From a virus: DNA of 36,611 nucleotides. Location: the IMG/VR virus record IMGVR_UViG_3300043410_000257, positions 1-36,611 of that record. One strand, given 5' to 3'. Numbering within the stretch: the first letter of the stretch is position 1; the number at the start of each line of letters is the position of its first letter. This document shows positions 16,839 through 35,711 of this stretch, in pieces. A model generated the notes under the pieces. The model was not told where the DNA came from and made no database searches. It worked only from the letters and a program-made list of their open reading frames with translations. A program made the translations under genes and the position numbers.

Positions 16839-17753
16839 TTAGACGCCGGGAGTGCCGTAAGCACAGCGTGGGTCGGTGAAGCCGAGGTCATAACGCTCGG
16901 TCGCCTTGTAACGCATTGTGTCGGTCTCGAAGTCGCCTTCCATGGTCTTCTCCAAACGACGACGCATCAAGAGTTTGAAGCCCTCTGGTGCATCAGTTTG
17001 AACCCACCATGCAGTGCTTGATGTCAAGCGAGACAAGACAGCGGCACCTTCGTCCAGCAAACCGATAGATTTCACTGGGTTGATGTCGTTGTTTGCGTTG
17101 CCTGTACGAAGCACAGACTTCAACAGCACTTCAGCTTGGAAGATGTTGCCGGGGGCCACGATCAATTGACGTGGAACCAAACGAATCTTCTTGCCGTTGT
17201 TGTCCACTGCTTGACGAATTTGGATCAACATTTGTTCCAAAGAAGTCTGAGACAAGTTAGCGGCAGTCGCCAATTGGTTGCTGAAAGTACCGTTCACGAT
17301 TGGGTGAGCGGTGTTGATCAGAGACACGCCGTCGCCGCCAGCATAGCTGGAGTTGAAAGCAGTGTTCAACACGTTGGCGGCAAGCAATTCCTTGGTTTCA
17401 ACCAAAGATTGTGCCAAGTGACGTGCGTACACCTGACCGATACGAATGTGGTCACCGTCTTCAACCAAAACTTTGGTCAAAGCAAATGCCAAACCGTATA
17501 CCTTGTACAGGTAACGCTTCAAGAAGAGGACGCCACCTTGTTGGTAGGTCACGGGCGTACCGTCAGGTAACTGAGGTGCGGCGCCGAAACCGTACAAGAC
17601 GGGTTCTTCATGGTAGTTGCGAGGGATGCCATCTTCTTCACGGAACACACGGCTCCATTCGTCGGCACGTTGGTCATAGACTCCGTCAAAGCACTCATTC
17701 AAGATGGGTTCAACGATTGAACGGAAGTCCGTACTGCGCATTGGTGCGGCCAT
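16839..17753 (-). CDS. Major capsid protein, HK97-fold type (304 aa)
   Basis: A 304-aa protein with the recognisable flow of phage major capsid proteins. An N-terminal helix (RSTDFRSIVEPILNECFDGVYD) is followed by a QGGVLFLKRYLYKVYGLAFA strand region, a spine helix (GQVYARHLAQSLVETKELLAA), and GGDGVSLINTAHPIVNGTFSN. The A-domain strand is RLVPRQLIVAPGNIFQAEVLL, with a closing DAPEGFKLLMRRR. Residue use is balanced and there is no protease domain. It sits between a decoration-like gene and a strong terminator, downstream of scaffold and portal, as expected. It would assemble around the scaffold-like protein at 18945. Confidence 0.88.
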   Translation of the reverse strand: MAAPMRSTDFRSIVEPILNECFDGVYDQRADEWSRVFREEDGIPRNYHEEPVLYGFGAAPQLPDGTPVTYQQGGVLFLKRYLYKVYGLAFALTKVLVEDGDHIRIGQVYARHLAQSLVETKELLAANVLNTAFNSSYAGGDGVSLINTAHPIVNGTFSNQLATAANLSQTSLEQMLIQIRQAVDNNGKKIRLVPRQLIVAPGNIFQAEVLLKSVLRTGNANNDINPVKSIGLLDEGAAVLSRLTSSTAWWVQTDAPEGFKLLMRRRLEKTMEGDFETDTMRYKATERYDLGFTDPRCAYGTPGV

Positions 17754-17770: not shown

Positions 17771-18367
17771 TTAAGCAATCGCGGTGACAGCACCGAAGAA
17801 TTGCGAGTTAGCGTTCACGACACGCACGATTGTGTATGCGTCGCCCCAGTCATTGCCCGGATAAGGAGCAATATCAACCACACGCATTTGACCTTGAGAG
17901 CCATTGCCCACGGCAGTTGCAGAGCCCAAAGTGGCTTGCGACAAACCTGTGGTTGTGGAACCAGCAGTCACGTTTGTGAAGTTGTACTCGTTGCCGATGG
18001 TCGTTTGAGCCATCGAGCCGTCAGCTTGGATTTCGTACACGATGTTTTGATCGTTGTAGAAGTAAGCGACGCACGAGCCTGTGGTGTACGCAGTGTTGGC
18101 AGGCCAGTAGTTAGACACACGGGCACGACCTGTGGTGTCAGTCCATTGGACGCCTGCGAAAGCGCCAACCCAAGCACCAGAAGTGGTGGCGGGGGTGATG
18201 GTGCCGAGAGTACCGCCGATGGCAGTAGTTTGATAACGGACAGGCTGACCTTTGAGAATGTCAGTGTTGAAGCCCGAAGGGATGCCGCCAGCCAGCGCCT
18301 GAGCACGATCCAAACCAGAGGGATGGAACGCAGGACGCAAGCCAAACGGAGCAGAGGTTGCACTCAT
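17771..18367 (-). CDS. Head decoration-like virion protein (198 aa)
   Basis: The N-terminus APFGLRPAFHPSGLDRAQAL followed by FNTDILKGQPVRY and AFAGVQWTDTTGRARVSNYW is a signature I recall from structural proteins beside major capsid genes in many podoviruses and siphoviruses. It is sometimes annotated as a decoration protein. The central part has YFYNDQNIVYEIQADGSMAQ, and the C-terminus is beta-rich. It lies immediately upstream of the capsid gene with only a ribosome-binding site between them. A trimeric or monomeric capsid-stabilising role is likely by position. Confidence 0.65.
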   Translation of the reverse strand: MSATSAPFGLRPAFHPSGLDRAQALAGGIPSGFNTDILKGQPVRYQTTAIGGTLGTITPATTSGAWVGAFAGVQWTDTTGRARVSNYWPANTAYTTGSCVAYFYNDQNIVYEIQADGSMAQTTIGNEYNFTNVTAGSTTTGLSQATLGSATAVGNGSQGQMRVVDIAPYPGNDWGDAYTIVRVVNANSQFFGAVTAIA

Positions 18368-18380
18368 AATTTACTCCTTG

Positions 18381-18926
18381 TTAGCCCGTAAACACGGGTG
18401 TTCGGTTGGGTTGCTGATCAAGAGAGCCAATACCTTCACCCTCGACACTCGCCAGCGAACGACCGTTGGAGTCACGTTGACCTTGGAGGTTTTCCACTTG
18501 AACACGAATCTTTTCAGCTTCTTCACGAGGTTTGTCGTGATGTTGCAGAGTCATGATCTCTTGGTAAATATCCATGGGCAATTTGAACAACAACATCTCG
18601 TTGCAAGAGATGTAGCCAACATGCTCACCTGACTTCACACGGTAGTTCTCATAGCCGGGCAACTCATCCGATTTAACGGGAACGTAGCCGAGGCGAATCC
18701 TCTTATCGATGGAGTCGTAACTGTTGGTTGTCGAAAGCCAGCAAAGGTGCCACCCGTCCATGTCGGGCAGTTTTGGCAATGCTGATTGCGTCCACTCCTC
18801 ACTCCACATCTTGCGACGTTCCTGTGCAGAAATGAACTTATCCTCAGGTGCAGAGCGACTAGCGTCCTCGCGTGAGCGATCATTGCGACCACCTGCATTG
18901 AGAGATTTTTTGAGACGTGATTCCAT
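18381..18926 (-). CDS. Conserved head-module protein, unknown (181 aa)
   Basis: The polar, Arg/Ser/Glu-rich N-terminus (about 1-40) is followed by a compact part with PKLPDMDGWHLCWLSTTNSYDS, a Tyr/Gly region (GYVPVKSDELPGYENYR) and GEHVGYISCNEMLLFKLP. A helical, Gln-rich tail follows. Proteins of this shape sit between scaffold and capsid genes in related genomes. A capsid-assembly accessory or head-vertex protein is possible. I know no function. ATG 18926 has AAGGGG 10-15 bases upstream on the coding strand. Confidence 0.65.
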   Translation of the reverse strand: MESRLKKSLNAGGRNDRSREDASRSAPEDKFISAQERRKMWSEEWTQSALPKLPDMDGWHLCWLSTTNSYDSIDKRIRLGYVPVKSDELPGYENYRVKSGEHVGYISCNEMLLFKLPMDIYQEIMTLQHHDKPREEAEKIRVQVENLQGQRDSNGRSLASVEGEGIGSLDQQPNRTPVFTG

Positions 18927-18944: not shown

Positions 18945-19946
18945 TTAGTTGCGGCGACCGTTTTGGCGGTCGAATTCAATGAACTGCTTGACCATTCGAG
19001 CCTTGCGCTCTGGGTTGTCCCACGCGCCCACTTCTTTCATCGCCTTCACACGTTCGGGCGACAAAACAAATTGGGTGCGGTTAGAACCACCGTAAGCGGC
19101 TGAAGCCTCGCGTCCTGCACTTCCCACAACATTCCTTGGTCGTCTGACATCACGGGTATCGTCGTCATTGGAATCATTGTAGCGGTGTGGTAACTCCTTT
19201 TGCAAGCGGCTTTCCAATTCGTCCCAATAATCTGGGTCGGATGGGTTCCACCCTTGAGTCACCATCAATTCGTCAATCTTCTTCGCCACGCGACTGTCTG
19301 CATCACCACCGTTGGGGTTGTACCACTTGTTGCGGTTCATCCACTTGGCGGCAAGGCGTTGCACGTCTGGGTCTGGAACATTGACGTTTTGGTTTTGTTG
19401 AGGTTGTTGACGCAATTCGCGGTCTGCTTGTTGACGCAGAGCCTGCAATTGACGTGCTTCCTCTTGAGCGGTCTGCCACAGAGTTTGGGCTTCGACCATT
19501 GCCTCGCCGTCACCGTTCTGAGTGGCCTCAGACAGCTTCATCTTGGCGTATTCGAGGCGCACTTGGGCGTCTTCAATGCCCTTGTCGATGCGAACGAGGT
19601 CGGCAGACTTGGTGTTGCGCTCCAATTGAGTCAAGCGACGCTTGAACTCTTCGTTTTCGCGTTGGAGTTGTTGAAGGCGAAGGTCTTTTTCCTGATTCGT
19701 CTTGCGAATTAAGTCCTTTTTGGCGCGACGACGACCACGTTTTGCGGCGCGTAACTCTTCATCGTCGTCTGGATGGTCGGCATCGTCGTCATTGACGCTT
19801 CCACCGTCGTTTTTGGCCTCTTGGGAGGCGTTTTGACCGTCCCCTTCGATGCCGTCGAGCATGTTTTCGGGCAAATCGACTGTTGCAGAGCCGTCTTGGC
19901 CCTCAATCACAGCGATGTCGTCCTGATTATCTTTTGGATCAGCCAT
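18945..19946 (-). CDS. Scaffold-like protein, acidic coiled coil (333 aa)
   Basis: The very acidic N-terminus (1-65) is followed by a basic hinge (AKRGRRRAKKDLIRK, about 68-82). A long Gln/Glu/Arg coiled coil (about 83-190) and a polar tail ending in VKQFIEFDRQNGRRN complete it. This is the composition of internal capsid scaffolds, which position capsid subunits and leave or are cut. It lies between the co-chaperonin and the capsid-proximal genes. Its first 27 residues match the portal N-terminus at 17 positions without gaps (see findings), which supports a shared assembly or location signal. Confidence 0.68.
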   Translation of the reverse strand: MADPKDNQDDIAVIEGQDGSATVDLPENMLDGIEGDGQNASQEAKNDGGSVNDDDADHPDDDEELRAAKRGRRRAKKDLIRKTNQEKDLRLQQLQRENEEFKRRLTQLERNTKSADLVRIDKGIEDAQVRLEYAKMKLSEATQNGDGEAMVEAQTLWQTAQEEARQLQALRQQADRELRQQPQQNQNVNVPDPDVQRLAAKWMNRNKWYNPNGGDADSRVAKKIDELMVTQGWNPSDPDYWDELESRLQKELPHRYNDSNDDDTRDVRRPRNVVGSAGREASAAYGGSNRTQFVLSPERVKAMKEVGAWDNPERKARMVKQFIEFDRQNGRRN

Positions 19947-19958
19947 TGTTCCCTCCTG

Positions 19959-20414
19959 TTAGACGTAGGCTTTGAAAGAAAGTGGGTTTGACGTGACCGT
20001 GGCGATCAACTCGTGATCATTCAAGGTCATGAACAACACTGGGTCTTCGTTCTCTTCGTCGCTTGGGTCACGAATTTCCCAACGATCACCGCCCCACTTG
20101 GGGACTCGAACGTAGTCGCCCACCTGCGCCCATGAACCCTCAGGCCATGACTGCATGGTGTCGCGGTTTTTGTACGCCAATGGGCCCAACGCGACGACTT
20201 TGCCAATCATGTTGTTCCACTTCTCGTTTTCTTTGGTCTCTTCGACCAAAACGATGCGTCCAGTTTTCTTTTTGATGCGTCGCAGTTGAACGATTACTCG
20301 TCCACCCAGCGGCGCCATGCCCGGCTTCACGTCGGGGAATGCCCACGCCAACTCCTCAGGACTTGGTGTGTCGTCAGTCGCTTCAAACGTGACGATCTTT
20401 TTGCCTTCGCTCAT
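19959..20414 (-). CDS. GroES-like co-chaperonin (Cpn10 fold, 151 aa)
   Basis: The core (about 32-125) follows Cpn10. PLGGRVIVQLRRIKKKTGRI forms the first strands, ETKENEKWNNM takes the place of the mobile loop, and GKVVALGPLAY and VGDYVRVPKWGGDRWE are the conserved barrel strands. An N-terminal extension of about 30 residues and a C-terminal extension (about 126-151) are phage-specific. Phage co-chaperonins such as T4 gp31 replace GroES on host GroEL to fold the capsid protein. No GroEL gene is seen here. The position next to scaffold and capsid genes fits that role. Confidence 0.82.
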   Translation of the reverse strand: MSEGKKIVTFEATDDTPSPEELAWAFPDVKPGMAPLGGRVIVQLRRIKKKTGRIVLVEETKENEKWNNMIGKVVALGPLAYKNRDTMQSWPEGSWAQVGDYVRVPKWGGDRWEIRDPSDEENEDPVLFMTLNDHELIATVTSNPLSFKAYV

Positions 20415-20452
20415 CTTCTCTCCTAAACACCATATCTCAGGTGCATCGTTAT

Positions 20453-20488
20453 GCGCTTTTTCAGCGCGGTCTCGCCACGGAGTGTGGC
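20453..20488 (-). other. Two small hairpins in the gap before the co-chaperonin gene
   Basis: In the 75-base gap 20415-20489, the minus strand forms GCCAC/GTGGC (20488-20474) and GCGCT/AGCGC (20467-20453), each with a 5-base loop. No U-tract follows, so neither is a convincing terminator. They could slow polymerase or be mRNA processing or stability elements between the portal cluster and the groES-like gene. Confidence 0.4.
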
Positions 20489-20489
20489 T

Positions 20490-20669
20490 TCAATCTTGAT
20501 TTTTTTCTTCGTCCAACATGGAGTCGATGATGTCCAAGGTTTTTTGCAGTCCTTGGTGCTCTCCCACCATGCGTTGGTAGCCGTCCCAAGTTGCAGGAAT
20601 GCCATTACCCATGGCTAACTGCAACTCGGCTTGGCGTACCTTGATCCTATGGATCAGTTGCTCAATCAT
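20490..20669 (-). CDS. Small helical phage protein, unknown (59 aa)
   Basis: ATG 20669 opens a 59-codon frame beginning MIEQLIHRIKVRQAELQLA, then GIPATWDGYQRMVGEHQGLQ and an acidic end. It is all-helical, with no membrane segment. Its start overlaps the TGA of the 50-aa gene (ATGA, 20666-20669). The helical pattern and the coupling make it convincing although it is short. I recall similar proteins near portal genes without a known role. Confidence 0.7.
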   Translation of the reverse strand: MIEQLIHRIKVRQAELQLAMGNGIPATWDGYQRMVGEHQGLQKTLDIIDSMLDEEKNQD

Positions 20670-20818
20670 TTTTTCTTGGCTTGAGACAAACCACCAGCAG
20701 GCTTACCTTGGCTACCGCCTTTGGATTGCATGCTTTGACCAGACAACTTCTCACCCATGGCGAGACGTTTGTGCTGGGGCACGTTGATGCCTTTTTGCTC
20801 TTGATCAGATGTTGCCAT
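20666..20818 (-). CDS. Small KGG-motif protein (50 aa)
   Basis: ATG 20818 lies inside the 3' end of the portal gene (14-base overlap). The 50-codon frame is Lys/Gly/Gln-rich and contains QSKGGSQGKPAGG, then ends AKKK. The KGG motif matches those of the 423-aa, 174-aa and 906-aa proteins of the same region. Its TGA overlaps the start of the 59-aa gene. The bases before ATG include GGAG (from GAAGGAGCCCCAA), a suitable ribosome-binding site. Confidence 0.62.
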   Translation of the reverse strand: MATSDQEQKGINVPQHKRLAMGEKLSGQSMQSKGGSQGKPAGGLSQAKKK

Positions 20819-23258
20819 TTGGGGCTCCTTCGGTTGGTTGCGCGGGTTCTACCGCAGGTTGTTGAGCCGATGCCACCTGTTGAATGGTCTCGTGCGTCAA
20901 TTTCGCATTTTCGATTGCAATCTTAGTCTGATTGTCTTCGATGTGCTCTTGCATGTCCTTCTGCAACTTGGCTTGCGACAGTTGCTGATCGGCTTGATCC
21001 TTCGCGGCCTTGCGCTGTGTTTCAGCCATGCTGGTGTCCTTGACCACTTGGGCGTCAGGCGGCAGGGGCTGTGGTTGGTTCTTGCGCTGTTGGGCCATCT
21101 GTACGAGGGCTTGCAAGGCTTGTTGGAACTGACCAAACACTTGTTCGCTGTCCAACATAACGTGGGCACCCACAGTGGTGTACACCTTGTCGATGGTGGA
21201 GGTGAGCGATGGATCGTCGTAGTTGTCCACGGGCTTGCCTGTGGACTGCTCCACGTAGCCATTCGAGCGATTGAGGTACCACAACGTCATGTGTTGCTTC
21301 AAGTGCTCGATCAGGTTGTTCAGGTAGTTCGGGTCTGCGAATGGCGATTGGCCCAAGAATGGGTTGAGCGCGAATTGCAGATGATCCTGAATGTGGGCGA
21401 TGTGATCCTGTTGTAGGTACGCATACGCTGGCTGACCAATGAGCAATGCGGCGTTCTCGTCGGCGCTGGTGCGTTGCTCTGGGGCTGGTGTGTCCTTGAG
21501 CAACTCGTTGATGTTGGGCACCTTCAATTGCTTCAAGAAGCGTTGCTCGACGGCTTGTCGGTTGTACAGATCAGGCGACTTGTCTGAGCGTGCCAACACA
21601 GCCTGAATCTGAGCCATGCGTTGGGTCTCAGAGAAGATGTGTGGATCACTGACAGGCACCACGTCGGTGTTCTTGTCGAAGTCTTCGCGGGTGATTTCCA
21701 AGTCGGCAACCACGTCGCCCTTTTGCATCTCGTCAAAGTGCCAACGATTCAAGCGGCACAAGATTTTGAGCACACGCTTTTGGCTGTCATGCATGCGTGC
21801 ATGGATCGATGAGAAGACTGCGGCGCCTTGCTCGATCAAAGCCTGTGTGGTGCCCACTGGTGCGTTGGCGTTGACATCAGCGATCTTCTCTTCCGAGGTG
21901 CTGACCACGCCCTTAGCGGCCTTGTCCAACCATCCCAACAACTCGAACAGCACTTGGCTGGGTGGGTTGAAGGGCATGGGCATGGCGATTTGGCGAATGT
22001 CCTGCACGCCGGGGGCGCCCTCGATCTCCACGATCTGTGTCACGTCCACTTGCTGTGACTGACCGCTGATCTTCGCGCCCTTCAGCTTCAACATCGTTGC
22101 CGTGTTGTTGATGTGCGCCGTGTCCAACAAGGCACGCAGAGCGCCCGTCAAGGCCGCGCTGAGGCCACCGATGAGGTGAGGCAAGCCAATGGCGTATGCA
22201 CCGCGCCATGGGATGAATTTGAACTCCACAACCCAATCCAACTTGGTTCGTGTCTTGTCGCCCTCTTCCCAATTTCGATACAGGCCCACAACTTGATTGT
22301 CGAGTTCGTCGATCATCAAGATGTAAGGTGCGCTCTCACCCTTGGTCTTCTTGTCGTCTTCCAACTCCAAGTGGGTGTAGATGTGATAGACCTTGCGCAG
22401 GCCGTCTTTGTTGTCCTCGAACTGCTTGCCTTCGACTTTGTTGTTGGCCTTCTCGACTTTGTTTTGATCCAACGTCATGCTGGCTTTCACAAAGTTGATG
22501 TCGCGGTACATGCCAACACGAATGCGACGCTCGAACTCGAACTGAGTGATCTCGTGAATTTCAGCGGCACGTTGGGCCGTGTAGAAGTTTGTCGCGGCGA
22601 AGGGGAGGATCACACGATCAATTGGCAAGAACTCAACGCATGGGCGCTTCTTCTCTTCGTCGAACCACAGCTTGAAGTACTGTGAGCCACCCAATGGCAA
22701 TTGAGTGAGCAACTGCTCTTGCTCGTCCTTGAACTCTTCGATCTGCTCGGTGATCTGCCAATTCATGAAGTCGCGCTTGCGCTCGGACTTCTGAGCCTTG
22801 ATGTCGTCCATCTTGCCCAAGACCTTGGTCTTGACTGGGCCGTCTGGTGGGAACATCTCTTTGATGGCGCGTGAGGCGAAGTCGACACAGCCCTCAGCCA
22901 TGGCGGGGTGCACCACTTTGCTGGCGCCCATGAACGTCGCGCCGCCGGGGGCATCATTACCCATGCCCGTGCGTCGAATGCCCTCTTCATACTGCTTGTC
23001 GCGCAGTGAGCGTGCCTCTTTGTCCGTCTCCAACAAGTCGAGGTAACGGAAGGCGAGGGTGCTCAACTCACTAGAGTCAATGCTGTCTGCGAGGTTGTCG
23101 TAGAAGTCAGGGTTGAACTCTGGGCCGTCTTCAATCGTGACAATGGCAGAGCCGTCATCTTGCTCTTCCATCTCGATCTCAGGCAAGTCAACGACAGCAC
23201 TGCCGTCTTCTTGCTCTTCGATTGGATAGTCGTCTTGATTCAAATCTTGGTCTGCCAT
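20805..23258 (-). CDS. Portal protein (P22-like, 817 aa)
   Basis: I start at ATG 23258, since a GTG directly before it is also possible. After an acidic N-terminus with two DGSA(V/I)V peptides (1-45), the body has recognisable portal segments: GGATFMGASKVVHPAMAEGC, EEKKRPCVEFLPIDRVILPF, YAIGLPHLIGGLSAALTGAL (crown/wing region) and LLDTAHINNTATMLK. The long helical C-terminal part (about 690-790) is Gln-rich coiled coil, like the barrel of large P22-type portals. The dodecameric portal is the DNA channel to which TerL and the adaptor bind. The gene follows terL and the 906-aa gene and precedes the scaffold. Confidence 0.88.
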   Translation of the reverse strand: MADQDLNQDDYPIEEQEDGSAVVDLPEIEMEEQDDGSAIVTIEDGPEFNPDFYDNLADSIDSSELSTLAFRYLDLLETDKEARSLRDKQYEEGIRRTGMGNDAPGGATFMGASKVVHPAMAEGCVDFASRAIKEMFPPDGPVKTKVLGKMDDIKAQKSERKRDFMNWQITEQIEEFKDEQEQLLTQLPLGGSQYFKLWFDEEKKRPCVEFLPIDRVILPFAATNFYTAQRAAEIHEITQFEFERRIRVGMYRDINFVKASMTLDQNKVEKANNKVEGKQFEDNKDGLRKVYHIYTHLELEDDKKTKGESAPYILMIDELDNQVVGLYRNWEEGDKTRTKLDWVVEFKFIPWRGAYAIGLPHLIGGLSAALTGALRALLDTAHINNTATMLKLKGAKISGQSQQVDVTQIVEIEGAPGVQDIRQIAMPMPFNPPSQVLFELLGWLDKAAKGVVSTSEEKIADVNANAPVGTTQALIEQGAAVFSSIHARMHDSQKRVLKILCRLNRWHFDEMQKGDVVADLEITREDFDKNTDVVPVSDPHIFSETQRMAQIQAVLARSDKSPDLYNRQAVEQRFLKQLKVPNINELLKDTPAPEQRTSADENAALLIGQPAYAYLQQDHIAHIQDHLQFALNPFLGQSPFADPNYLNNLIEHLKQHMTLWYLNRSNGYVEQSTGKPVDNYDDPSLTSTIDKVYTTVGAHVMLDSEQVFGQFQQALQALVQMAQQRKNQPQPLPPDAQVVKDTSMAETQRKAAKDQADQQLSQAKLQKDMQEHIEDNQTKIAIENAKLTHETIQQVASAQQPAVEPAQPTEGAPNGNI

Positions 23259-25978
23259 CACTTAGCCTTTTTGTTTGTCAGTTCAAGACGCATGTCGTCC
23301 ATGTTCTTGTGAATGCTCACGCCCTTTTTGTGGGCTGAATGATACTTCGCTTGCGCTTCGTCTTCACCTCGACGCATCGCCAAGTGACGTTGCGCCATGA
23401 TGTTTTGCTCTGGGAAAGCATGGAAGTCGTCATGACCAAAGCCATGGTGACGACTGCCGACACTGCCGCCTTTTGCCAACTTGATAGTGCTTGGCAACTT
23501 GATCGCCATTGGCTGTCGATACTCTTTCCCCGCCGCTTTGATTTGCTCTTCTGGCTTGTCAATCTCGTACTCTCCTTTGTTCGCCATCGCGTGCTCGATG
23601 TGCTTTTGATTCACATGGTGAGTGAACGATGTCTCATGGCCCAAGTTGCTTGTCGACTCGGTGGGTGTGGTCATCAAGATGTGACCAGCCTCTTTGCCGT
23701 TCTTGGTCTTGAAGCGATTCTTGGGCAAGAACTCAGTGTCTTTGAAACGTGAGTCCGTTGGGATCATGTGAGGCGTGCCATCTTTGTTGGTGCCCACTTG
23801 AACCAAGCGAGGGTGCAACACGTGCTGGCGCTGGTAGTCGAAGCGTTGGTCTTTGACTGTGCGATGACCGTAGTGGGCTTTGTCTTCGCTTGTGGCCTTG
23901 CCGCTTGGGCCGAAGTGACCTTCTGGGCCCTCTGCCTTTTCCTCTTCGCTCAACTCGCTCACAGGACGACCTGTCGACCAGTACTTGGCGTGAGTGATGT
24001 GCTCTTCCATCTTCTTAGCCATGGGTGAGCCGCGCTTCACGTCGGTGACCATGTACGAGCCCTTGGGTGGCGTCTTGTTGCCTTGCTCGTTCTTGAAGTC
24101 GCCTTTGTTGTCTGCCGCCAAGATGGTGTTGCGAACACGTGCCTTGTCGCGTGCGATGTTCTCGCTGACTTGCTCACCCTTCTTGACCTTGGGGCCGACG
24201 TTCGAGTGAGTGACGTAGTAGCCATTCTCTGGGTCGTGCAACTCGTTGGTCTTGCCATATGAGTTGGCGATGATCGGTGGCTTGCCCTCGGCCTTGCGTT
24301 GCTCGTTCAAGTGACGTAGGACGTGACGTGAGGACACGTCGGTCTCGTCCACCACGTTGGGACGGAACAGAAGGCGTTGGTTCTTTTTGTCTGCACGGTT
24401 CGCGGCGTTACGCAGTGAGTGGGTGTGGGCCAGAATCCAATCGTTGGTCATGGCTGGGTCGTGCTTGGCTTGCTCGTGAGCGGCACGGCGCGTTGCGGCG
24501 CCGGGGTACTGGCTCTCGGCGTTCGGTGCAAAGCACGTGCCCTTCTTGGTGTCCACGATGCCCTCGGCGTCTTTGCCACCGCCACATCCCTCGGTCTGAC
24601 CGGGGCAGGTGTTGATCACGTGGTACTTGGTGTCCTTGCCGTGGCCCGATGTGTACAAGGCATGGCCTGCCACACCTTTGGAGGCATAGCCTACATGGGA
24701 GCGCCCCTCTTCGTCGTACTCATGGCGCACAGTGTCCAACTTCTCGGACTCGTCCAAGGTGTCTGCGTCCTTGCCCAAGTGCTTGGCTTGACGCAGGCGA
24801 CCTAGTGCGGCCTTTTCTGCTTCGATCTGCTCTTCGGGTGATTTGCCGAAGTGCTCTGCCAATGTCTTCTTGTGGGCACTGCCGATCTTGCTGATCGTGA
24901 GTGGCTCACGGTGCTCAGAGCCGTACACGCCTGCACGCGCCTCGTTCATCTCATGGATGCCCACAGCGCCTGACTTGGCGTTGCCTTCCAACGTGTGGCG
25001 TGGTACGACCAACCCTTTCACACCGCCTGAGCCTTCTGCACGTATCGTCACGCGCTTACTCTCTTCGACGGGTGCTTTGGCCTTCTTGGGTTTCTTGCCA
25101 AGAATCAATTCAGCCTTCATGTCGTCCGCAGACATCGAGCCACCCTTTGCCATTGGCTTTTGTGGGGCGTTCTTGTCGCCGGGCTCCATCGCTCCCATGG
25201 CTTGGCCTTGTGGCGTCATCGACAGCATGTTGCCCATGGGTGGTGTTGGGCCTTGAGGCGCCGCACCTGCTTGTGGTGGCTGACCGCCTTGTGGGGGTTG
25301 GCCTGCTTGGGGCTGTTGACTTGGTAGGCCCTGAGGCATGAGTTGTTGACCGCCCTGCATGCGATTGGTGTCGATGCCGCCGATGGGCATGCCGTTGGGG
25401 GTTGCCACGCCGCCGGGGGTGGGGATGCCGCGCTGTTTCATGTCAGGCGCAAAGAACATCTTCGGCGCCATGCTCGGCGCCTCATTGATGCCAATGTTCT
25501 TGAGCGAGATGGGGTTTGTCTTCTTTGACAGCGCCATCTTCATTTGGGCCATCGATGGTTGCACGTTGCCGCCACCTGCCTTGTTGATGGGGTGCATCTG
25601 CTTGCCCGTCTTCTCTTGGATGTAGTACGAGTCATGGCCTGCACGCTTGATCGCTGACTGCATGCGTGGGTCTTCGATGTACTTGTGACTGCCTGTGCCC
25701 AATATCTCAGCCATGTGCTTTTGCGACTCTGGGTGAATGTTGAACTCTTTGTGTCGCATGAGGTGCCCAGCTACGTTGTGCGTGTGCTCTGGGTTCTGAT
25801 AGTCGAATGGGTTCTTGTGCACTTGGCCTCCTTGGGCTTTGTTGGGCGGCTGGTTTCTATTGGCGATCTGCTCTGCATTCCATACTGCCTGAGCCTTGCG
25901 TTGGGCATCATTGGCTGGCTGCTGCATCAAAGCCTTGAGCCGCTCTAATTCGGCAATGCGTTCAGGTGTAAGTGCCAT
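23258..25978 (-). CDS. Large unknown protein between TerL and portal, with Cys core and KGG motifs (906 aa)
   Basis: Regions in order: a helical N-terminus (1-45); a His-rich part (50-130); a Pro/Gln/Gly low-complexity stretch (about 180-270); a basic linker (285-325); an alpha/beta core (about 340-600) with C458-x6-C465-x16-C482, SQYPGAATRRAA and FRPNVVDETDVS; and a His-rich C-terminal part. Motifs KAQGGQV (47-53), KAGGG (133-137), AKGGS (277-281) and LAKGGSV (834-840) tie it to the KGG proteins. The Cys core resembles the uncharacterised phage GP88 family in pattern. It may be an internal or ejected virion protein; position and composition only support that weakly. Confidence 0.6.
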   Translation of the reverse strand: MALTPERIAELERLKALMQQPANDAQRKAQAVWNAEQIANRNQPPNKAQGGQVHKNPFDYQNPEHTHNVAGHLMRHKEFNIHPESQKHMAEILGTGSHKYIEDPRMQSAIKRAGHDSYYIQEKTGKQMHPINKAGGGNVQPSMAQMKMALSKKTNPISLKNIGINEAPSMAPKMFFAPDMKQRGIPTPGGVATPNGMPIGGIDTNRMQGGQQLMPQGLPSQQPQAGQPPQGGQPPQAGAAPQGPTPPMGNMLSMTPQGQAMGAMEPGDKNAPQKPMAKGGSMSADDMKAELILGKKPKKAKAPVEESKRVTIRAEGSGGVKGLVVPRHTLEGNAKSGAVGIHEMNEARAGVYGSEHREPLTISKIGSAHKKTLAEHFGKSPEEQIEAEKAALGRLRQAKHLGKDADTLDESEKLDTVRHEYDEEGRSHVGYASKGVAGHALYTSGHGKDTKYHVINTCPGQTEGCGGGKDAEGIVDTKKGTCFAPNAESQYPGAATRRAAHEQAKHDPAMTNDWILAHTHSLRNAANRADKKNQRLLFRPNVVDETDVSSRHVLRHLNEQRKAEGKPPIIANSYGKTNELHDPENGYYVTHSNVGPKVKKGEQVSENIARDKARVRNTILAADNKGDFKNEQGNKTPPKGSYMVTDVKRGSPMAKKMEEHITHAKYWSTGRPVSELSEEEKAEGPEGHFGPSGKATSEDKAHYGHRTVKDQRFDYQRQHVLHPRLVQVGTNKDGTPHMIPTDSRFKDTEFLPKNRFKTKNGKEAGHILMTTPTESTSNLGHETSFTHHVNQKHIEHAMANKGEYEIDKPEEQIKAAGKEYRQPMAIKLPSTIKLAKGGSVGSRHHGFGHDDFHAFPEQNIMAQRHLAMRRGEDEAQAKYHSAHKKGVSIHKNMDDMRLELTNKKAK

Positions 25979-34514: not shown

Positions 34515-35711
34515 TTAATTTCCTTTCACGCAGAGCACCTGCTTGAGTTGGTGGACAACCTCAACGAGGTCGGTTTGGTTTGCCATCACTTGGTCGATGT
34601 CTTTGTACGACGCTGGGATTTCGTCGATGACTGCCTCGTCTTTGCGGCACTCGACGCCTTCGGTTTGAGCGATGAGGTCAGTAATGCTGAAACGCCTTTT
34701 AGCTTCAGCTCTGGACATAACCCGTCCTGCCCCATGTGAACAAGAACAATAGGATTGCAAGTCACCCTTTCCACGGACAATATAGCTTCTCTGCCCCATA
34801 GAACCCGGAATAATTCCGAGGTCTCCGGATCGCGCACGAATAGCTCCTTTACGAGTAACCCACATGTTGCGACCAAAGTGATTCTCCTTCTCGACATAGT
34901 TGTGATGGCAGTTGATTGCCTCTTGTGTGATGGTGAATGGTTTGGTGATGGACTGCTTCATGGCCTCGATGACCTGCTCCATCATCAAGCGGCGGTTCTC
35001 AAGCGCGTAGTTCTGCGCCCAGCCCACTGCCGTCATGTAGTCGTTGAATTCCTCTGTGTCCTCTGGGAAGTACGCAAGGTCGTCGTCTGGCAATGAGATG
35101 AAGAACTTCTCCATCTTTCGCTTTGCTTTTGCGATGTAGTGCGTGCCAATCATGTTGCCGATGCCACGCGAACCAGAGTGCAACATGATCCACACATCTT
35201 GGTTCTCGTCGATGCACACTTCAATAAAGTGGTTGCCCGATCCCAGCGTGCCAAGTTGTGGGCCTGCCTTTTTCCAGTACTCGCCAGCGATCTCGTTGAG
35301 GTTTTGACACAGGTAAAAATCCGTATCTGGCAAGCGCTTGTATCGCTCGTTCAAGTCCTCTTCTTTTTGCAAACGACCACCAGCACCCAATGGCACGCGC
35401 TTCTCGATCTCGTCACGAAGGGGCTTGAGGTTGTCTGGCAGGTCGGTGGCCTTCAAAGACAAACGCACGGCGTTCATGCCGCAACCGATGTCTACCCCTA
35501 CCGCCGCAGGAATGACGGCCTTCTCGGTGGCAATAACGGTGCCCACGGTCGATCCGATGCCAGCGTGCACATCGGGCATGCAGGCCACGCCATTGCTGTT
35601 GATGAATGGCAGGCGTGACAGATTCTTGAGTTGGGTCAGTGCTGACGCCTCAACTTCGTCTGTCCAAATTTTGATTGGGCGTGAACCCTCTTCTTGAATA
35701 ACTTGTTTCAT
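34515..35711 (-). CDS. rtcB: RtcB-type RNA ligase (398 aa)
   Basis: Mn/GTP-binding motifs are present: CMPDVHAG (44-51), VGVDIGCGMNAVR (71-83, with D74 and C77), GSGNHFIEV (157-165, H161), LHSGSRG (177-183, H178), and the guanylation motif SCSHGAGR (323-330, H326 the likely nucleophile). RtcB joins 3'-phosphate or cyclic phosphate ends to 5'-OH ends of RNA, as left by anticodon nucleases. In phages it may repair host tRNA cut as a defence. The length (398) is slightly below the E. coli enzyme (about 408), and all core motifs are intact. Confidence 0.93.
   Translation of the reverse strand: MKQVIQEEGSRPIKIWTDEVEASALTQLKNLSRLPFINSNGVACMPDVHAGIGSTVGTVIATEKAVIPAAVGVDIGCGMNAVRLSLKATDLPDNLKPLRDEIEKRVPLGAGGRLQKEEDLNERYKRLPDTDFYLCQNLNEIAGEYWKKAGPQLGTLGSGNHFIEVCIDENQDVWIMLHSGSRGIGNMIGTHYIAKAKRKMEKFFISLPDDDLAYFPEDTEEFNDYMTAVGWAQNYALENRRLMMEQVIEAMKQSITKPFTITQEAINCHHNYVEKENHFGRNMWVTRKGAIRARSGDLGIIPGSMGQRSYIVRGKGDLQSYCSCSHGAGRVMSRAEAKRRFSITDLIAQTEGVECRKDEAVIDEIPASYKDIDQVMANQTDLVEVVHQLKQVLCVKGN

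Follow-up and report, generated by a model that had tools for sequence, protein, structure and literature searches.

The virus record IMGVR_UViG_3300043410_000257, whose full 36,611 nucleotides (36.6 kb) are referred to here as the window, carries its head genes on the minus strand. Along that strand the order is terminase small and large subunits, a 906-aa gene, portal, GroES-like co-chaperonin, scaffold-like gene, two small genes and capsid protein. The features that concern us are given below.

20805..23258, minus strand: portal protein, 817 aa (ATG at 23258); phrog_1216 portal, 6.5e-22, and AlphaFold2 fold
23178..23222, minus strand: portal hairpin copy 1, residues 13-27, IEEQEDGSAVVDLPE; predicted strands 14-15 and 21-22, pLDDT about 52
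23127..23171, minus strand: portal hairpin copy 2, residues 30-44, MEEQDDGSAIVTIED; predicted strands 30-32 and 38-40, pLDDT about 64
19959..20414, minus strand: GroES-like co-chaperonin, phage type, between the portal and scaffold genes; PF00166 1.8e-5, phrog_3188
18945..19946, minus strand: scaffold-like protein, 333 aa, between the GroES and major capsid genes; AlphaFold2 model
19869..19910, minus strand: putative docking hairpin of the scaffold, residues 13-26, VIEGQDGSATVDLP; predicted strands 13-15 and 21-24, block pLDDT 74-76
19677..19754, minus strand: basic start of the scaffold coiled coil, residues 65-90, net charge +9, conserved; candidate receptor
18381..18926, minus strand: conserved 181-aa gene downstream of the scaffold gene; relatives have a gene at the same place; no family match in profile searches
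17771..18367, minus strand: conserved 198-aa gene upstream of the capsid gene; phrog_37556
16839..17753, minus strand: major capsid protein, candidate receptor; PF25209 3.6e-11, phrog_371

The nearest annotated relative is MW202545, an environmental circular genome of 57 kb whose portal is 87.5% identical to that of the window. After it come Caulobacter phage RW and its kin (portal 49% identical), and further relatives are Roseobacter phage CRP-901, phage DSL-LC04 and the Pelagibacter phages HTVC027P and HTVC023P. The 906-aa gene (23258-25978) overlaps the portal start and matches Pfam GP88 (2.2e-6); the DSL-LC04 gene at this position is named PcfJ-like, and phage RW has no gene there.

Both profile and fold place the portal protein among tailed-phage portals (phrog_1216, podovirus portal fold). 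Its AlphaFold2 model, built like that of the scaffold from alignments of 87-88 relatives with the rows of annotated phage records left out, matches the portals of PaP3, SU10, N4, A4, T7 and P22 with Z of about 20-25 (Foldseek, VIA-align), and a sequence search of solved structures returned no relative. Because the portal body begins near residue 50-60 and alignments to solved podovirus portals start at model residues 55-67, past the tags considered below, these tags constitute an N-terminal extension ahead of the wing, directly preceding its first helix. The scaffold-like protein consists of a tag, a disordered acidic linker, a long coiled coil (helices 63-144 and 147-187) and a C-terminal domain, and it shows two hallmarks of a scaffold, the coiled coil and a gene located between those for portal and capsid. 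Profile searches matched 79 of 88 family members to phrog_28737, which carries no function, and five of the 88 weakly to phrog_8865, 'head scaffolding protein' (best E 6e-4); Foldseek with the model gave no significant fold match. Judged by position, coiled coil and these weak profile matches, the protein is likely to be the scaffold. Annotated records call the gene hypothetical, and in two phages it is named kinesin-like or kinesin motor domain-containing.

The N-termini of the scaffold-like ORF (18945-19946, minus strand; MADPKDNQDDIAVIEGQDGSATVDLPE) and the portal ORF (20805-23258, minus strand; MADQDLNQDDYPIEEQEDGSAVVDLPE) are identical without gaps at 17 of 27 positions, exactly as described in the original prediction, which was also correct that the portal repeats the core, DDGSAIVTIED, at residues 34-44 (23127-23159). 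When the 26 residues after Met were shuffled 200,000 times, matches averaged 2.8 and reached at most 11, compared with 16 observed, a result that rules out pure chance as the source of the resemblance. The next best N-terminal pair among the 40 reading frames of the window has 7 matches. The DNA has diverged while the peptide has been kept, again in agreement with the earlier claim, with the same codon at 8 of the 17 identical residues and matches at 48 of 81 bases. Translation of the window in all six frames gives three instances of DGS after D, E or Q, namely the scaffold site and the two portal sites. Among relatives the MAD..NQDD leader varies, and the conserved unit is E..DGSA.V[DE][LMV]P. 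Its core, E..DGSA.VDLP, is predicted by the models to form a beta-hairpin in all three places, with low confidence in the portal (pLDDT 52-64, monomer model).

On both proteins the peptide is a genuine module that is conserved in its own right, and the shared hairpin marks a large group of phages, most of them uncultivated. All portals in 71 near genomes contain two or more copies, 17 (rarely 19) residues apart, and all scaffolds contain one copy at about the same position. E15, D18, G19, S20 and A21 are invariant across dereplicated sets of about 50 portals and about 50 scaffolds, as are D35-A38 in the portals, and neighboring positions of the acidic arms vary freely in the same sets. Entropy is zero at E, D, G, S and A in all three copies, with the E of copy 2 at nearly zero. 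In the wider clade, where portals are 51-72% identical to that of the window and most scaffolds only 35-54%, 119 of 120 distinct genomes encode the DG hairpin core in both proteins; the single exception (L551) has a degenerate EGGN in its scaffold. The tag is kept in both proteins even with scaffolds that are only about 35% identical, and L479-group scaffolds keep 8 of 12 tag positions identical versus 31-36% identity outside the tag. Selection acts on the peptide rather than on the DNA, because DGSA is encoded by 31-44 different DNA 12-mers with both AGY and TCN codons for Ser. A DNA-level signal is thereby ruled out as the reason for conservation.

To judge from its distribution in sequence, the peptide is nearly restricted to portal and scaffold. 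A frame-independent DNA pattern of the DGSA.V type, which allows Thr or Trp for Ser, matched the portal twice, at sites separated by 51-57 bases, and the scaffold once, about 3.3 kb further on, in 15 of 15 relatives' records, and a reversed-pattern control gave no matches in these 15 records. Eight extra matches, some of which may not encode the peptide, are scattered across six of the records. Two of them (G005:50079 and G010:26073) are identical, GATGGATCAGCATCGAT, and lie upstream of the portal; the remaining six are in G004, G005, G007, G008, G010 and G014.

The tag is not a trait of all relatives. Scaffolds of the DSL, HTVC027P, CRP-901 and RW types have other N-termini with no significant own-pair match, and phages of the RW, DSL-LC04 and HTVC027P types have no clearly shared tag. 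Portals of the RW-type sister clade have DGGA, but its scaffolds have just a strand, for example DEFEIIEGEEPV, similar to the first tag strand in the window (IAVIEG). Sharing by both proteins is thus not obligatory, because RW-type relatives keep the portal hairpin without a scaffold hairpin. The original prediction had named, as an observation that would count against it, relatives that assemble normally with the peptide on only one of the two proteins; RW-type phages supply the one-sided distribution, and Caulobacter phage RW is a cultured phage. HTVC027P-type and DSL-LC04-type scaffolds (L198-L277 and L118-L197, respectively) have conserved N-terminal islands of their own, TVDIDTSGPAMDVDVPE in the former and LEFKIGEDE.PATVE in the latter, that resemble hairpins but differ in sequence.

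Portal copy 2 is almost universal: in 87 portals that are 26-94% identical, its glycine (G36) is invariant and its aspartate is present in at least 90%. The full copy 1 is found in the window's clade and some neighbors and is missing in the L479 group, which joins the window's clade in the portal tree with support of 0.997. Because copy 2 is near-universal, copy 1 is patchy and the RW-type scaffold has no hairpin, portal copy 2 is most likely the ancestral element. The scaffold hairpin is common to the whole window-side clade, and portal copy 1 probably arose later as a duplicate. The portal does carry two copies, as originally stated, but the copy then called second (residues 30-44) would be the ancient one and the N-terminal copy the late addition. 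Portals of L082 and L358-L433 have a recurrent GE[MV][VF][ED]LPE upstream of DGGA, about where the window has copy 1, and this stretch is perhaps a degenerate first copy.

With intermediate clades included, scaffold tags tend to follow changes in the portal core, a covariation that is suggestive of a common receptor without amounting to proof. With portals cut at a fixed point near residue 60, as for the portal tree, own portal-scaffold pairs have an N-terminal score of 60 versus 29 for shuffled sequences, and 49 of 49 exceed the 95th percentile; within the closest clade, own pairs score no better than swapped pairs (60.0 versus 60.7). Of 14 readable DGSV portals, 13 are paired with a DGSV, DGTV, DGSI or DGTL scaffold; one of these, L535 from a separate lineage, has DGSV in both proteins. 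L537 has DGGA in both. After removal of whole-portal distance, portal and scaffold tag distances give a partial Mantel r of 0.27 for the core (p 0.0005), a test that is lenient with related sequences and draws here on few independent tag changes. A tree-aware branch-placement test of co-change was not significant, with two of three portal changes on the same branch (P 0.15).

A docking or targeting signal common to both proteins, the function first proposed for the peptide, is the natural reading because the module is conserved on each of them and selected as protein. Conservation in 119 of 120 genomes and protein-level selection bear out the module, and docking itself is what we infer from them. 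On balance we favor a model in which portal and scaffold display one docking hairpin that is read by a common receptor in the procapsid, with the portal being taken up as scaffold would be. The acidic beta-hairpin E-x-x-D-G-[SGT]-[AV]-x-V-[DE]-[LMV]-P would be the docking ligand in the assembling procapsid. Each scaffold molecule would bear one hairpin on a flexible N-terminal arm, and each portal subunit would bear one or two on the N-terminal extension before the wing domain, hence 12-24 copies on a 12-mer ring. The same receptor would read both, so that the portal would enter the scaffold/capsid lattice just as scaffold does, a mode of uptake that would favor a portal-containing start of assembly. 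Conjectural parts of this model are the sharing of one receptor and the consequences for portal incorporation.

As to the receptor, the conserved basic helix of the scaffold itself (residues 65-90) is quite possibly the site, a proposal made from charge complement only: the two acidic N-termini have net charges of -18 and -20 versus +9 for the helix, and the scaffold tag sits on a low-confidence acidic arm ahead of this basic coiled-coil start. The inner face of the capsid protein is a more tentative candidate, suggested by analogy with HK97, in which a scaffold strand joins the capsid P-domain sheet (PMC10275583). The portal wing, for which P22 and HK97 provide precedents of a wing cleft, or another protein is an unlikely receptor. 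A bolder form of the favored model has the portal posing as scaffold, with core and single portal vertex both built through one receptor site and the duplicate peptide on the portal raising avidity; it is less likely than not.

Alternatively, the hairpins might bind the portal itself, with the portal arm resting on the neighboring wing and the scaffold arm occupying the same cleft, in which case the scaffold would mimic the portal. The portal hairpin is more widespread than the scaffold hairpin and probably older, the tag lies just ahead of the first wing helix, and in P22 and HK97 scaffold occupies a cleft between portal wings (PMC12005531; PMC10275583). However, the hairpins are poorly defined in the monomer model (pLDDT 52-64) with no sign of firm packing, and we regard this arrangement as rather improbable.

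In T4 and giant phages, the head protease removes N-terminal head peptides, and a peptide that is N-terminal, exposed and acidic could be cut off in a similar manner or could mark its protein for removal during maturation. Protease removal, which the original prediction had raised, finds no support here, since profile searches recognized no protease in the head cluster, in which two genes are without a family of known function. Moreover, the invariant residues are those of the hairpin turn, and portal copy 2 is close to the folded core, all of which makes a processing or degradation signal a poor prospect. Recognition of the tag by the phage co-chaperonin or a host chaperonin, aiding the folding of portal and scaffold, might be suspected from the position of the GroES gene between the portal and scaffold genes in related phages. 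The co-chaperonin, an originally suggested partner, is nevertheless unlikely because the tag is absent from Pag-Yong1 and QDWS535, in which the GroES and scaffold genes stand in the same order; the HTVC023P portal also lacks the DG core, and we consider the chaperonin explanation very improbable. Recent duplication or functionless convergence of similar acidic disordered N-termini can be set aside: both N-termini are strongly acidic and other clades show compositional similarity only, but a core of zero entropy across about 50 dereplicated portals and about 50 scaffolds, its presence in 119 of 120 genomes and the many synonymous codings leave this explanation almost no likelihood.

The docking model that we favor has partial parallels in known systems. 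In T4, the capsid targeting sequence (CTS) is cleaved by the head protease. This short conserved peptide directs several internal head proteins to the scaffolding core (PMC3012670), and the peptide described here is likewise short, N-terminal and common to at least two head proteins. Unlike the CTS, which is reported on internal proteins and not on the portal, it is carried by portal and scaffold, is a predicted hairpin and is accompanied by no recognized protease; we do not claim membership in the CTS class. In P22, scaffold drives formation of the portal ring, which serves as the nucleation site (PMC9320234). The direct meeting of scaffold and portal that starts assembly in P22, HK97 and phiBB1 resembles our model, but the contact there is between the portal wing and scaffold helices or C-loop, and the accessible parts of those accounts describe no peptide common to both partners. 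The helix-turn-strand of the HK97 delta-domain offers, through strand addition to the P-domain sheet, a possible mode of binding for the hairpin; unlike the tag, that domain is part of the capsid polypeptide, and the first 50 residues of the HK97 portal are not visible. The N-terminal whisker of the T4 portal touches the capsid, and loss of 3-4 of its residues is lethal (PMC9958956). It is similarly an N-terminal portal extension at the wing, but comprises six residues, with no scaffold counterpart described in PMC9958956. We found no published account of a peptide common to portal and scaffold in the open-access literature, and within that literature, although the principle resembles that of the T4 CTS and portal whisker, a single peptide common to these two proteins appears to be new.

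How exactly one portal ring enters the growing procapsid is only partly understood in P22, HK97 and T4. The shared peptide provides a precise handle on this process, with four invariant residues to change and natural variants among many relatives (DGSA, DGSV, DGGA, one or two portal copies, no scaffold copy). If the portal does pose as scaffold, the peptide would constitute a rule for portal recruitment that can be read from sequence. The analysis also names the likely scaffold of a large phage group whose gene is annotated as hypothetical. Elsewhere in the window, a GIY-YIG and NUMOD3 protein of the homing-endonuclease type lies among the tail-side genes (2306-2839), and positions 34515-35711 hold a phage-encoded RtcB RNA ligase (6e-131).
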